From: Phycisphaeraceae bacterium | Lineage (GTDB): Bacteria; Planctomycetota; Phycisphaerae; Phycisphaerales; SM1A02 | Direction: 5' to 3' | Assembly (NCBI GenBank): GCA_003562195.1 | Contig: PWVT01000087.1 | Location: 1-33,740, forward strand | DNA length: 33,740 nucleotides | Shown: piece after piece, positions 2,919 through 9,223 of the stretch | Layout of the letters: the number at the start of each line of letters is the position of its first letter | Numbering within the stretch: the stretch's first letter is position 1 | Notes under the pieces: model-generated | What the model saw: the letters and a program-made list of their open reading frames with translations, nothing else | Told to the model about the DNA's origin: nothing | Databases searched by the model: none | Program-made: the position numbers and the translations under genes

Positions 2919-4295
2919 ATGACCGTTACAACAGCCACAGTGTTTGCGTTACTGGGTCTGGGAATGATCGTACTGGGCTTGCGCGGCCGCAAGGTTGATA
3001 CGCATCCAATCTGTCGGGCGTGCGGGTTCGACCTGTTCAATCTCAAACCAAATGCCAGCACATGCCCGGAATGCGGGAGTGACATCACAATTCCCCGCGC
3101 GACTCGATGCGGAAACCGCCGCAGAAACACTCGTGCAGTGCAACTGGGTGGACTGCTTGTGTTGTTTTCATCCGGCGTCATTTCAATCGCGCTATGGGCA
3201 CGCTCCGCGCAATTCGATTGGAACACCGTGAAACCGGCCTGGATGCTTCTTCGAGATACAAGGAGCAACGATGCAAAGCGAAGTGACGCGGCACTCGGAG
3301 AACTCACAGCGCGCTTCCAGAATGATGCGCTCTCACTGGCGATGCTGAATACGCTGGCTGAACGAACATTGAGCGTTCATGGTGATGACGAGGCGCGATG
3401 GTCTGATGGGTGGGAATTGTTGCTTCGCCGTCTGTTGATGCGTGGCGCGCTGAATGACGAGCAGGTTGTCAGGTATGCACGGCAAACGCTTCTGACATCA
3501 CTGGTCATGCGGCCGCGCGTTCGGCAAGGTCACACCGCGCTCGTCGTAATTGACGTGGACCGACGCCGCCACGCACGGGAGTGTCCGCTGCATCTTGAGG
3601 TCTACGGCAAGACGTTCACCGTCGGTGGTGAGGAAACGCTACGCGGGCGAGGTGGGGGATCGACATCACTATGCGCCCTGCATGGCAGCTTCGGCACGCA
3701 CGTACATATTGATCTCGAACGTGGGAGTTATCCAGTTGTCGCTGCGTGGGACGTTTCACTGATCAATGCGGAGACCGGCCACCAGTATGCACAATGGGTT
3801 GAACGCTTTGAATCGAAACTATTGGTTGTCGGTCCGGATGAGGATGACATTCGACACGTCAGTACTCCGAAACTTGATGAACAGATGGAAAGGCGTATTC
3901 GCTCTCGTGATGTTGCGATCGCAATGCAGGATGGTCGTTTCTCAACCGGCGTGGTGGACTTCAGACCGCTGCCAATTGATGTCGCGTTCGATGTGTATTG
4001 GCGCATCGGTGAGGCCGAGCATCGCGTAGCTGAGGTCGCTCAAGCAGCCAAACCATCAAATGAAGGACGTGGTTACAGCGTGGATCCGTCACTTGACTTT
4101 GGGATCCCACCAGAAGAAATCGAGACCATCACCGTGATCCTTCGAGCGAGCAGCGATGTGGCGCGGGGTACGGCAGGGACGACGAGCATTTGGGGTGGCA
4201 CGCTCGTGTTCAACGATGTGCCGGTGCGTGAGGTTGGCCAGCCGCATAGTACTGATCTGGAAGAGGCGCTATGGTGGCAGGCGGATTTGGATTGA
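2919..4295 (+). CDS. Zinc-ribbon membrane protein of unknown function
   Basis: N-terminal TM (TTATVFALLGLGMIVLGL), Cys4 zinc ribbon CRACGFDLFNLKPNASTCPECG, second TM (GGLLVLFSSGVISIALWA), then a large soluble domain. ORF begins at GTG 2910; ATG at 2919 preferred. Confidence 0.75.
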   Translation: MTVTTATVFALLGLGMIVLGLRGRKVDTHPICRACGFDLFNLKPNASTCPECGSDITIPRATRCGNRRRNTRAVQLGGLLVLFSSGVISIALWARSAQFDWNTVKPAWMLLRDTRSNDAKRSDAALGELTARFQNDALSLAMLNTLAERTLSVHGDDEARWSDGWELLLRRLLMRGALNDEQVVRYARQTLLTSLVMRPRVRQGHTALVVIDVDRRRHARECPLHLEVYGKTFTVGGEETLRGRGGGSTSLCALHGSFGTHVHIDLERGSYPVVAAWDVSLINAETGHQYAQWVERFESKLLVVGPDEDDIRHVSTPKLDEQMERRIRSRDVAIAMQDGRFSTGVVDFRPLPIDVAFDVYWRIGEAEHRVAEVAQAAKPSNEGRGYSVDPSLDFGIPPEEIETITVILRASSDVARGTAGTTSIWGGTLVFNDVPVREVGQPHSTDLEEALWWQADLD

Positions 4296-4334
4296 TCAAT
4301 TGACGCGAGGCGCAGCTTGGCTCATGCTTTGCGT

Positions 4335-4910
4335 ATGCTCAAGATCATCAGCGGGGAGTATCGCTCGCGTCAACTGGCCACGCCGCCGGATGAGGCCATC
4401 ACTCGTCCATACTCAAGACGCGTCAAAGAATCGATTTTCAACCTCTTGCGAGGATGGTTTGAGGATGCCAATGTGTTGGACCTCTTCGCCGGAGTTGGAA
4501 CAATGGGGCTGGAAGCAGTCAGCCGTGGTGCCAAACAGGTGTTGTTGGTCGAACAGGATCGACACATCTTCAAGCTGCTTGAGCAGAATATCGCAACGCT
4601 CGGCTGCGGCGATCGCGCGATCGGGATGATGGGTGACGCGTTGGGTCAGACGAGTCTGCTCCGTGCACCCCAGCCGGTGGATATCGCGTTTGTTGACCCG
4701 CCATACGCACTGATGCTGCGACCTGAATCGCGCCAACGTGTCATCGAGCAAATTCGACGGCTACGGGAGATCATGAACGGTCGTGGCTTTGTTGTGCTTC
4801 GCAGCCCGATCGAGCCGGATGGTCAGGAGTGGGTCATTGAAGGTTTTGATGGCCCTGAAACACACCGGTATACCAAAGAAATGTGGGTTCTTCTTTACGC
4901 CCCCAGTTAA
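4335..4910 (+). CDS. rsmD: 16S rRNA (guanine(966)-N2)-methyltransferase RsmD
   Basis: MLKIISGEYRSRQLATPPDEAITRPYSRRVKESIFNLLRGWFEDANVLDLFAGVGTMGLEAVSRGAKQVLLVEQD...VDIAFVDPPYAL: RsmD N-terminal signature and DPPY motif. Confidence 0.93.
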   Translation: MLKIISGEYRSRQLATPPDEAITRPYSRRVKESIFNLLRGWFEDANVLDLFAGVGTMGLEAVSRGAKQVLLVEQDRHIFKLLEQNIATLGCGDRAIGMMGDALGQTSLLRAPQPVDIAFVDPPYALMLRPESRQRVIEQIRRLREIMNGRGFVVLRSPIEPDGQEWVIEGFDGPETHRYTKEMWVLLYAPS

Positions 4911-4970
4911 GGGCGATTCAGGATCGCGTAATGCATCCTCTCTGACGGGGAATTCGCTACGCTTCTCAAT

Positions 4971-6230
4971 ATGTCCGATGCGCGCGACAGTGCCTCAATT
5001 CAATCTGCGGACGCCCGCCGCAATGCAACGGCGATCGTCCGCAAACTCGTCAATGCGGGATACACGGCTTATTTTGCAGGCGGGTGTGTGCGTGATCATC
5101 TTATGGGCCATGACCCGCTCGATTACGATATCGCCACCAATGCGAGGCCAAAGCAGATCCTTGAGTTGTTCCCGCGCGCCCAGGCAGTCGGGGAATCGTT
5201 CGGCGTGATGCTTGTGCAGCATCGTGGTTACTGTGTAGAGATTGCGACGTTTCGGACGGAGGGTGTGTACTCTGACGGGCGGCATCCTGACTCGGTTTCC
5301 TTTTCCGATGCGGAACATGATGCCCAACGTCGGGACTTTACGATCAACGGCATGTTCGAAGATCCGCTCAACGATGAAGTCATCGACTACGTTGGCGGAC
5401 GGGCTGATCTTGAGAAGAGGGTCATCCGCGGAATCGGGGATCCCCATGCACGGCTGCGTGAAGATCGTCTGCGGATGCTTCGCGCGGTGCGATTTGCGGC
5501 GCGCTTTGAGTTTTCTATTGACGCTGACACCGCTGACGCTATTCGCACCGGCGCCGAGCAGCTTCAGGGGGTGAGTCGCGAGCGCATTGGCCAAGAGGTA
5601 CGAAGGATGCTCACGAACACCAACCGTGCAGTTGCTGCTTGGGAGATGCAGTATCTCGGTCTGGACCGCGTTGTATTGGAGGAAGAAAACATGACTGTCG
5701 CGCCGACACGCGTCGGACGGCTCCCGGATCGTACCCCTTATGCCGCGGTACTTGTGGCGTGGCTGTTGGATCGACATGAGTTGAAACATCCCGAGCTGGA
5801 AGCATTGCGTGTGGTTTTGGCTCAATGGAGTGGTTCGTTGGTATTTTCGAATGCGGACTATGCCGAATCGACCCGGTGTTTGGAGGTGTACATCGTCTTA
5901 CGAGATTCCTGGAACACAATCGGTGTTGCCAGCCAGAAGCGCCTGGCGGCCTCAGAGCATTTCCCGCACGCCTTGGCGGTCTATCAGACGCTTGATCGCC
6001 CCGGCTTTATCGATGTCAAACGCCGCGTGCAGGAACTGGCTGAAACGGAACTTGCCCCAACGCCGTTGATTACCGGTGAGGACCTCATCCGCATCGGCCT
6101 GACACCGGGCCCGGAGTTTCGTCGAATACTTGATGCGGTGTACGACACACAGTTGGAAGGAGGCATCAACGATCGGGACGAGGCCCTGGCCTTGGCCCAG
6201 GCCCTTACGAATGGTGGGTTGGAATCTTGA
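4971..6230 (+). CDS. cca: CCA tRNA nucleotidyltransferase / poly(A) polymerase family
   Basis: AYFAGGCVRDHLMGHDPLDYDIATNARPKQILELFP (class II nucleotidyltransferase GG...DxD), DAQRRDFTINGMFEDP, DPHARLREDRLRMLRAVRFAARFEF. CCA-adding versus PAP activity cannot be decided from sequence alone. Confidence 0.9.
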   Translation: MSDARDSASIQSADARRNATAIVRKLVNAGYTAYFAGGCVRDHLMGHDPLDYDIATNARPKQILELFPRAQAVGESFGVMLVQHRGYCVEIATFRTEGVYSDGRHPDSVSFSDAEHDAQRRDFTINGMFEDPLNDEVIDYVGGRADLEKRVIRGIGDPHARLREDRLRMLRAVRFAARFEFSIDADTADAIRTGAEQLQGVSRERIGQEVRRMLTNTNRAVAAWEMQYLGLDRVVLEEENMTVAPTRVGRLPDRTPYAAVLVAWLLDRHELKHPELEALRVVLAQWSGSLVFSNADYAESTRCLEVYIVLRDSWNTIGVASQKRLAASEHFPHALAVYQTLDRPGFIDVKRRVQELAETELAPTPLITGEDLIRIGLTPGPEFRRILDAVYDTQLEGGINDRDEALALAQALTNGGLES

Positions 6231-6368: not shown

Positions 6369-7838
6369 ATGTCAAATCGCGCTATTCGTCGTTCACACAG
6401 GTTTGTCTTGATGGCTATAGCCGCAATGGCGGCCTTTGTGTTGCCCACCCCTGGAACCGCCAACCCCTATGCTGTCGCCGCGTTAGCGGTGTTCACCGCT
6501 GAGGTAAACACCGTGGACATTGTGCATATGCGTGATGGTCGCGAGTTGACCGGCAAGATCCTGAATGAAGACTCGGCACAGATTGTCTTTCGGTATATCG
6601 ATCCCAATCTGAATTTAGAGACCACGCTCACGCTTCAGAAGCGAGACATCCTTGAAATCGAGCGCGATGTCGCCATTGGTTCTGATTCCCCGCTCGTCGA
6701 TGAATATGCCGACGATGACGATGATCGTGATGTTGAGCGTTCGCGGCCGTCAGGCATTGAACAAGGCCTGGCTGAGGGTGATGCGGACGATGAAAGTCTT
6801 CCGGCGTTTTACGTCATTCCGATGCGCGGCCAGATGGGTACGGACATCCGCTCGGATGCCTATCAGCGCATCGTTGAAGAGATTCGCCGCGAGCAACCGG
6901 AGTTGGTCATCTGGCTTCTTGACTGCGCTGATCGAGATGAACTGATGATCTCAATGTCGGACCCGGCTGAAGGTGGTCTCACCCAACTCATTGAGGACTA
7001 CCGTACGCTCGTTCGCATGCTGCATGACGAGCTTCGAGGAATTCGTCAGGTTATGTGGGTTCACGACTCGTTCGGAATCAGCTCGTTGATGGCGCTTGCA
7101 TGGGAAGAAATGTACATGGCGCCCGGTGCCCGCCTGACCGGATTCCGTGCGATCTATGAAGGCGCATCTCGCATGGGCGATGCAGACGTGGCTGCGAAAA
7201 TGGTGGCAGCGTGGATCGGCATTATCAACGGATTCCTTGAACGTGGTGGCCGCCCCATCGAATTGGGTGAAGCCATGTCACGCCCGCATCATCGGCTGAG
7301 TGCAACATGGCGCGGCCGACAAGTTGAATGGCGTTTGGATACTTCGGGTGAGTACATCGTCAATGGCAGTGATGAAAGCACCGCTGCATTCCGCGCGAAA
7401 ACAGCAGAGGACTTTGGGATCAGCAAGGGGACGGCAGAAACGCTGGACGAACTCGCTTTGCTGCTTGGCTACCGCGAGTATCGGGTGATTGAGGGCGGTG
7501 CAGAGCAGATCATTGAACGGTACGTCGAGAACTGGCGACGCGCGTTTGAGAACAGCAAGACACTCTGGATGGACTTCAACCAACACATGGGGTGGGCGAC
7601 AGGTGATCAAACGCGGCAATGGCTGGGGCGGGCTTTGAACGACCTTCGCCGCATCATTTCCGCAGTTCGTCGCTACCCCGCTGTGGAGATCCGATTCTCT
7701 ATGGAGTACGGACTCGATTTGTTTGCGCTTGAAATGATTGAAGAGGAGTTGCGTGAACGCATGCGTGCACTGAATCAGCGTGATCGCAACCGTGGCCGAG
7801 GTGGTGGTGGCGGACGTCCTGGTCGGGGCGGCATGTGA
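6369..7838 (+). CDS. Secreted ClpP/NfeD-fold protein, paralog A (Lys retained, canonical Ser position is Gly)
   Basis: Signal peptide (HRFVLMAIAAMAAFVLPTPGTANP), small beta domain (VDIVHMRDGRELTGKILNEDSAQIVFRY...TLQKRDILEIE), ClpP-like core (AFYVIPMRGQMGTDIRS...VMWVHDSFGISSLMALAWEEMYMAPGARLTG...AAKMVAAWIGIINGFLERGGRP), helical C-terminus and Gly/Arg-rich tail. Start at ATG 6369 preferred over GTG 6321. Confidence 0.82.
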   Translation: MSNRAIRRSHRFVLMAIAAMAAFVLPTPGTANPYAVAALAVFTAEVNTVDIVHMRDGRELTGKILNEDSAQIVFRYIDPNLNLETTLTLQKRDILEIERDVAIGSDSPLVDEYADDDDDRDVERSRPSGIEQGLAEGDADDESLPAFYVIPMRGQMGTDIRSDAYQRIVEEIRREQPELVIWLLDCADRDELMISMSDPAEGGLTQLIEDYRTLVRMLHDELRGIRQVMWVHDSFGISSLMALAWEEMYMAPGARLTGFRAIYEGASRMGDADVAAKMVAAWIGIINGFLERGGRPIELGEAMSRPHHRLSATWRGRQVEWRLDTSGEYIVNGSDESTAAFRAKTAEDFGISKGTAETLDELALLLGYREYRVIEGGAEQIIERYVENWRRAFENSKTLWMDFNQHMGWATGDQTRQWLGRALNDLRRIISAVRRYPAVEIRFSMEYGLDLFALEMIEEELRERMRALNQRDRNRGRGGGGGRPGRGGM

Positions 7839-7906
7839 CGCGTCACGACTTTCTGTAGAGCAGATTCGCTAGGCAATCAACTTTCTAGCTAGTTAGTGAG
7901 ATTCTT

Positions 7907-9223
7907 ATGATTCGTACGATTCACAGTATGTTCGCCCTTTTTCTGGTTCTGGCGATCCTGACGCCCGTTGCAGCAGCGCAAAGCATTGATATGCGGCTCG
8001 CTGATGGCAGTCGCTGGCGCGGCGAAGTCGGAGATCGCGTTGAAGTAAAGCACGTCCAGCAGGGCACAGAAATCACCATCGTTGGCAAAATCGTCAATGC
8101 GGGCAGTGATTTTCTCATGGTGAAGCATGAATCTGCAGGAAGCGAGCGTCAAAGTACGCTCTTCCGAGGCGATATTCGTTCCATTCGTTCGGTGACGGAA
8201 TCGGAGGGGCAGAGCACGCGCACGCCTACGCGTCGCGGTCAGGATACTCCCTCTCAAAGACAGCCGGACTCAAGGTCACAAAGTGACGCCGCCAAGGGGC
8301 CCGGCGTGTTTGTGCTCCCGTTGACCGGCATGGTTGGCCCGCGCATCAATCACCATTTGATCGAAAAGATGGTTGAAGAAGCGGACAAGCATGGCCCGGG
8401 CCAGATCATCATTCTGGAACTCACCACCGGCGGTGGGGCTGTCGTCGAAATGGAACAGATCGCTCGCGTGTTGCTGGATGTCAAGCAGCGTCACCGCGTG
8501 GTTGCATGGGTGCATGAAGCCATTTCAGCTGGCTGCGCAACGGCCATGCTGTGCAACGAAATCTACTTCAGTACGATGGGGACTGCTGGCTCCATGACGA
8601 TGTACTCCGGCTCTACGTCGGTCAGTGGTCAGGAGCTGCAGAATTGGTTGCAACGTGGGGGTGAGTGGGCCGAGGCAGGTGGTAATCACCGCTATATCGC
8701 TCATGCGATGATTCACGCGCCACTGATGCTCTCGTATGACAAAGATCCCGAGACCGGCGAGATCACCTACTACAACGATCTCTCCGGGGAGTACATTCTT
8801 TCCCGGCCCGGAGACAACTTGACCCTCAATGCCAGCAATGCCGTGCACAGCGGATTCGCCGATGGCATTGCTGACACCACTGACGATCTCGCTGAACTGC
8901 TCGATTTGCCTGAATGGCGAGAAGTCAACGACTACGGTCGTCGTTTGCACGATGACTGGAACGCACTGGTAGACCGTGCTGAACGTGAACTTCCGCGGTT
9001 GATGGCCCGCTACCAGCGTGGTACGTCCGGCGATGCCATGGAAAACCTTCGCCTTCGCATTCGCATCATCGAAGATCTGCTTCGCTGGTGGGACCGTGCC
9101 CCAGCTGCGATGATGTACATGCTCGGACCAGACTCCAAAACGGCGTTCGAACGCGAACTTGCAGAATTGCGCAAGCGACTTGCAGATATGACGCGACAAC
9201 AACGCGGTGCCGGTCGGCGGTGA
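7907..9223 (+). CDS. Secreted ClpP/NfeD-fold protein, paralog B (Ser retained, canonical Lys position is Gln)
   Basis: Signal peptide (TIHSMFALFLVLAILTPVAAAQS), same small beta domain (SIDMRLADGSRWRGEV...GKIVNAGSDFLMVKHE...LFRGDIRSIRS), ClpP-like core (GVFVLPLTGMVGPRINHHLIEKMVEEADKHGPGQIIILELTTGGGAVVEMEQIARVLLDVKQRHRVVAWVHEAISAGCATAMLCNEIYFSTMGTAGS), helical C-terminus. Confidence 0.85.
   Translation: MIRTIHSMFALFLVLAILTPVAAAQSIDMRLADGSRWRGEVGDRVEVKHVQQGTEITIVGKIVNAGSDFLMVKHESAGSERQSTLFRGDIRSIRSVTESEGQSTRTPTRRGQDTPSQRQPDSRSQSDAAKGPGVFVLPLTGMVGPRINHHLIEKMVEEADKHGPGQIIILELTTGGGAVVEMEQIARVLLDVKQRHRVVAWVHEAISAGCATAMLCNEIYFSTMGTAGSMTMYSGSTSVSGQELQNWLQRGGEWAEAGGNHRYIAHAMIHAPLMLSYDKDPETGEITYYNDLSGEYILSRPGDNLTLNASNAVHSGFADGIADTTDDLAELLDLPEWREVNDYGRRLHDDWNALVDRAERELPRLMARYQRGTSGDAMENLRLRIRIIEDLLRWWDRAPAAMMYMLGPDSKTAFERELAELRKRLADMTRQQRGAGRR

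Follow-up and report, generated by a model that had tools for sequence, protein, structure and literature searches.

A conserved tandem pair of NfeD1b/1510-N-family paralogues in Phycisphaerales divides the Ser and Lys of a protease dyad between two genes

The closest described system to the gene pair analysed here is the NfeD protease 1510-N, in which both members of a Ser/Lys dyad are indispensable, the S97A and K138A variants each being dead (PMC3795559). One 1510-N dimer binds one peptide and has a single cut point, and the two residues at position 138 (Lys in the wild-type protein) come very near each other at the dimer axis (PMC3795559). That study does not state whether Lys138 acts on the Ser of its own chain or on that of its partner (PMC3795559). 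In SppA of Bacillus subtilis, the active sites are built from residues of two adjacent monomers (PMC7568657).

The window (the whole stretch of DNA analysed, 33,740 nucleotides from a Phycisphaeraceae bacterium) comes from a fragmented draft genome, and carries two related genes on the + strand, separated by 68 bases. Gene A, which we call the Lys half (6369..7838, + strand), encodes 489 aa, and gene B, the Ser half (7907..9223, + strand), encodes 438 aa. The two products are paralogues (BLASTP E=7e-14, 25% identity across 330 columns), and their AlphaFold2 models (pLDDT of 89 for B and 83 for A) predict a shared build consisting of a hydrophobic N-terminal helix, a small beta domain, a ClpP/NfeD-like core and a long helical tail, which in A is followed by a Gly-rich end. 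According to the secondary structure of the model, the core of A spans residues 146-373 (6804..7487, + strand). The fold search with the A model also returned weak, short matches to Hfq chains (Sm-like barrel), which probably correspond to the N-terminal beta domain (residues 48-102, window 6510-6674).

Both proteins belong to the NfeD1b/1510-N family of ClpP-fold, Ser/Lys-dyad proteins, with the fold itself resting on prediction. B matched the Pfam family NfeD1b_N (PF25145) with E=3e-16 and 59.8 bits, over the curated cut-off of 40 bits, whereas A fell under it (E=0.007, 16.4 bits). The top solved structure in Foldseek searches was 1510-N for both models (E=6e-9 for B and E=2e-7 for A; TM normalised to the target of 0.72 and 0.67, respectively), and both are therefore predicted to adopt the 1510-N fold. 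B. subtilis SppA came next for each. The SppA family model TIGR00706 gave only 27 bits for B against a cut-off of 155 and no match for A, and phmmer searches of the PDB with A alone or B alone found no homologue; the link to solved structures needed profiles for B, and for A it was made only through the fold search and hhalign. The NfeD1b criterion of a Ser97/Lys138-type dyad within a single chain is unmet by either protein, as A is without the Ser and B is without the Lys.

The register of the catalytic positions was established by three alignment routes. MAFFT, applied jointly to 243 homologues, placed Gly236 of A (codon 7074..7076, + strand) under Ser207 of B (codon 8525..8527, + strand), and Lys277 of A (codon 7197..7199, + strand) over Gln242 of B (codon 8630..8632, + strand). 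Profile-profile alignment with hhalign of A and B, each separately, against homologues that carry both Ser and Lys recovered identical columns, with Gly236 paired with the Ser of these homologues. When the Ser+Lys homologues were aligned to PH1510-N, its proven Ser97 and Lys138 occupied the same two columns. Ser207 of B also aligned with the Ser column of B. subtilis SppA. The three routes agree on the register. In the AlphaFold2 models, Ser207 of B and Gly236 of A both stand at one strand-helix elbow. On this basis Ser207 is the presumed nucleophile of B and Lys277 the presumed general base, given in trans, of A; the Ser has been lost at Gly236 and the Lys at Gln242. Ser238 and Ser239 of A were considered as alternative nucleophiles and rejected, since they vary among orthologues and the alignments place Gly236 at the Ser position. 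A search for an alternative base in B was also unsuccessful, with no Lys or His conserved; the only conserved acid that is absent from other homologues is the B-specific Glu181 (conservation 0.94).

To follow these positions across the order, about 100 homologous regions were fetched, yielding 95 orthologous A-B pairs; the related loci with named records were nearly all from metagenome assemblies of Phycisphaerales, Phycisphaerae or other Planctomycetota. The complementary Ser and Lys states hold across the 95 pairs. Lys was present at the Lys277 column in every one of the 95 A orthologues, and no A orthologue had Ser at the nucleophile column, which was occupied by Gly in 89, Ala in three, and Gln, Val and Phe in one each. 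Conversely, Ser was found at the Ser207 column in 95 of 96 B orthologues, the sole exception being a third, extra copy in locus L140. At the Lys column of B the residues included Glu (28 of 96), Ala and Arg (17 each), Gln (9) and Lys (4); in the four proteins with Lys (from L063, L075, L077 and L105), this residue occupies a position that varies freely. When columns are ranked from least to most variable, that of the Lys takes first place among 307 in A and place 294 of 347 in B. This residue pattern is far beyond chance. The extra copy in L140 belongs to a three-gene array (L140:3527-4720 and 4656-5984; genome G092, family f3), in which the additional B-like protein has neither the Ser nor the Lys.

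The division extends beyond the two dyad residues. Columns fixed in the Ser+Lys homologues comprise the oxyanion-hole Gly-Gly, the Ser, a Gly at alignment column 717 and the Lys; B keeps the Gly-Gly, the Ser and the Gly at column 717, and A fully keeps only the Lys. The Gly-Gly motif of B (Gly176-Gly177, codons 8432..8437, + strand) is invariant in B, as it is in Ser+Lys homologues, and in A an insertion stands in its place. In a set of 25 diverse A proteins, three positions (K277, L310 and G316) never varied, and the invariant columns among 24 B proteins include G176, G177 and S207. A diverse alignment of B proteins diverged too strongly to be scanned for patterns. One further Ser, at Lys+3 (column 758 of the joint alignment), is invariant in the Ser+Lys homologues and is lost in A. 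In the pair, the catalytic machinery is thus cleanly divided, with the oxyanion hole and Ser in B and the Lys in A.

These results bear on the initial annotation of the locus, made from sequence alone, which had proposed that A and B are tandem paralogues with complementary loss of the catalytic Ser and Lys. The paralogy, the open reading frames and the four codons (Gly and Lys in A, Ser and Gln in B) all held, with correct coordinates. The complementary loss held across the 95 pairs, with the amendment that four of 96 B proteins carry Lys at the column. Two findings that would have refuted the proposal, placement of the Ser-Ser of A at the nucleophile position and a lack of conservation in orthologues, were not made: the alignments do not put the Ser-Ser there, Lys is kept in A and Ser is kept in B. 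The accompanying comparison with SppA held only in part, as the nearest solved fold is that of 1510-N.

To place the pair in its wider family, 33 homologues outside it were considered, some belonging to other families within the order and class and some being additional paralogues carried by the same genomes. Both Ser and Lys were present in 32 of these, the exception (in L155) having Arg for Lys, and because of this the ancestor was most simply an ordinary dyad enzyme. The A clade (support 100/99), the B clade (100/99) and the two together (98/93) were recovered in the tree, and each clade first splits families f2+f3 from f1+f4. These matching family splits within supported clades indicate that A and B are sisters from one old duplication. 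The direction of change is thus shown, in its simplest form, to be complementary loss from a Ser+Lys ancestor.

A second adjacent split pair was found in genus g60 (family f6), in four species (L293-L296). The first gene of this pair has Thr-Gly-Gly-Gly and Ser, and its Lys column is occupied by Asp, Gly or Pro; the second keeps the Lys, is without the Gly-Gly and has Phe or Ala at the Ser column. The order is therefore Ser then Lys, the reverse of A-B. The two g60 genes are sister to one another (100/100) and cluster with Ser+Lys paralogues (100/99), apart from A and B. Approximately unbiased (AU) tests rejected trees in which the Lys-only genes were held together (p=8e-55), the Ser-only genes were held together (p=3e-6) or A, B and the g60 genes formed one group (p=2e-4), with log-likelihood gaps of 133, 127 and 48, respectively; a single common origin of all Lys-only genes is accordingly rejected. 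It should be noted that the groups were named after the first tree had been seen, making the p-values somewhat optimistic, but the likelihood gaps are large. It is thus very likely that the identical partition of the dyad evolved twice, independently, an outcome that is hard to explain unless Ser and Lys can work in trans. The Lys gene of g60, too, has lost the Ser at Lys+3.

A and B are also linked in the genome. In all 95 pairs the genes are adjacent and on one strand, with A upstream of B. Co-occurrence was counted by hand in 162 genomes sampled from families f1-f4 of the order (all ≥90% complete except the window's own), with thresholds of E<1e-20 for A and E<1e-30 for B: both genes were found in 152, neither in seven, A only in two and B only in one (Fisher p=6e-10, a guide only, as kinship among the genomes is ignored). 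A CCA/poly(A) tRNA nucleotidyltransferase gene is the conserved upstream neighbour in the window (4971..6230, + strand; Pfam PolyA_pol 2e-36), and it precedes A in the same orientation in 76 of the 95 pairs; we regard it as a syntenic marker and not as a functional clue. No stomatin or NfeD-type gene was seen among the Pfam-annotated flanking genes of the window, other neighbour clusters having been left unannotated, and no natural A-B fusion was noticed in the search tables, without a dedicated search. In family f20, L308 has adjacent superfamily paralogues (L308:2804-4090 and 4127-5779), of which one has Ser and Lys and the other has Ser replaced by Ala and, by eye, no Lys at the base position, possibly representing a pair of an enzyme and a dead partner.

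Exceptions to this linkage occur in genera g35 and g37, where A and B lie on different contigs. In g35, A remains beside the tRNA nucleotidyltransferase gene, and B is elsewhere or was not found. Two g35 A proteins (L298:3313-5022 and L302:2958-4382) combine a Ser at the nucleophile position with the Lys but have no oxyanion Gly-Gly, and in one of the two genomes concerned (G062) no B was found. The g35 exception is unexplained; drift to a different use or a gap in a draft assembly are both possible.

The best explanation of these observations is, in our judgement, likely to be an obligate A:B hetero-oligomer with a composite active site. In this model, A and B would be the subunits of a single NfeD/1510-N-type protease that is secreted or periplasmic, with proteolytic activity and export both being inferred. 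B would give the oxyanion hole and the nucleophile Ser207, and A would give the general base Lys277 across the subunit interface, such that a complete site would exist only at A:B contacts, never at A:A or B:B, amounting to about one site per heterodimer. Such an enzyme would have originated when an ordinary homomeric Ser+Lys enzyme, whose Lys already acted on the Ser of the partner or close to it, was duplicated and the two copies then underwent complementary loss. With a single Ser and a single Lys, the heterodimer would retain the one working site used by the substrate. The precedents of SppA and 1510-N make a meeting of Ser207 and Lys277 between A and B plausible. Physical contact between A and B and the action of Lys in trans are likewise inferences, as no complex model, pull-down or activity data are available. 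The initial annotation had also suggested a hetero-oligomer with a shared active site, and this reading is supported by the Ser+Lys ancestry, the second split and the near-perfect co-occurrence, with interface and catalysis remaining inferred. It had further taken the order of a Lys gene followed by a Ser gene as a mirror of SppA; this failed as evidence and was dropped, because the g60 pair has the opposite order.

Several points stand against a composite site, namely the Ser in two g35 A proteins (one without a B), the separate contigs in g35 and g37, the Lys in four B proteins and the loss from A of the Ser at Lys+3. A bolder reading is that the pair represents a two-paralogue Ser/Lys protease, necessarily heterodimeric and having only one, asymmetric site, that evolved at least two times from a homodimeric NfeD-type enzyme, with catalysis across the dimer axis being the ancestral mode of the family. 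We lean towards this reading by a narrow margin only.

Of the rival explanations, the one with most in its favour is that B is an enzyme that uses another base or Ser-only chemistry, and that A is a dead activator or scaffold whose Lys is kept for structure or assembly. A has neither the oxyanion motif nor the Ser, dead paralogue activators are known (PMC5201418), with ClpR to ClpP and prozyme to AdoMetDC as models, and E181 offers a B-specific conserved acid. However, few columns of A are near-fixed and the sole catalytic one among them is the position that B has lost, B has no conserved Lys or His in place of the base, and the same outcome arose twice independently; we therefore consider this rival unlikely.

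It is less probable still that neither protein is a protease, both being non-catalytic scaffolds or peptide binders in which the conserved residues are remnants of a binding site. No activity is known for A or B, the nucleophile position of some A proteins holds Gln, Val or Phe, and the extra B-like copy in L140 has lost its Ser. Yet full conservation of Ser, Gly-Gly and Lys over 20-50% identity is unexpected for decaying sites, and the same holds for losses that, on two occasions, left each pair with exactly one full dyad; this possibility appears very unlikely. Finally, A and B could act in separate complexes, with adjacency and co-occurrence reflecting only a shared ancestral locus by the tRNA nucleotidyltransferase gene. 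The synteny of the locus with this gene (76 of the 95 pairs), and the location of B away from A in g35 and g37, would be consistent with this. However, A alone would be without Ser and oxyanion hole and B alone without a base, leaving no complete dyad, and neither the joint absence in seven genomes nor the two independent origins fit separate roles, so that this explanation is all but excluded.

If the composite enzyme is real, it would represent a serine-protease dyad split between two genes that arose on two occasions and became fixed in several families of one bacterial order, and would provide a natural test of Lys working in trans in NfeD/1510-N-type proteases. It would also be an enzyme controllable by subunit pairing. 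A further caution would be that A-type genes, which fall short of the Pfam threshold, could be necessary halves that have been overlooked, and not dead paralogues. The open-access literature searched gave no precedent for a Ser/Lys protease divided over two genes.

Among known systems, PH1510-N (PF25145; PDB 2DEO, 3BPP, 3VIV, 6M4B) shares with A and B their predicted fold and the Ser97/Lys138 columns, but has both residues in one chain, is a homodimer and is encoded beside a stomatin gene; in A and B, the dyad is divided, and there is an extra N-terminal beta domain and helical tail. B. subtilis SppA (MEROPS S49; PDB 3RST, 4KWB) also combines a Ser/Lys dyad with the ClpP fold, and its site drawn from two adjacent monomers matches the site proposed here; unlike A and B, it is a homo-octamer with both residues in every chain, and is more distant by fold search. 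SppA of Escherichia coli (protease IV; PDB 3BF0, 3BEZ) arose by internal duplication, with the Lys in the N-half and the Ser in the C-half. It is the fused, single-polypeptide counterpart of A plus B, which are two genes, and the g60 pair has the opposite order. The deoxyhypusine synthase pair of trypanosomatids (PMC3663545) resembles A and B in consisting of an impaired enzyme and a dead paralogue encoded by two genes, but it is an unrelated enzyme, described as a case of allosteric activation and not of a protease dyad divided between subunits. ClpP/ClpR and other ClpP hetero-oligomers belong to the same fold superfamily and are built from paralogous subunits with loss of catalytic residues. 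In these, complete triads remain in one subunit and the loss is one-sided, whereas in A and B it is complementary.
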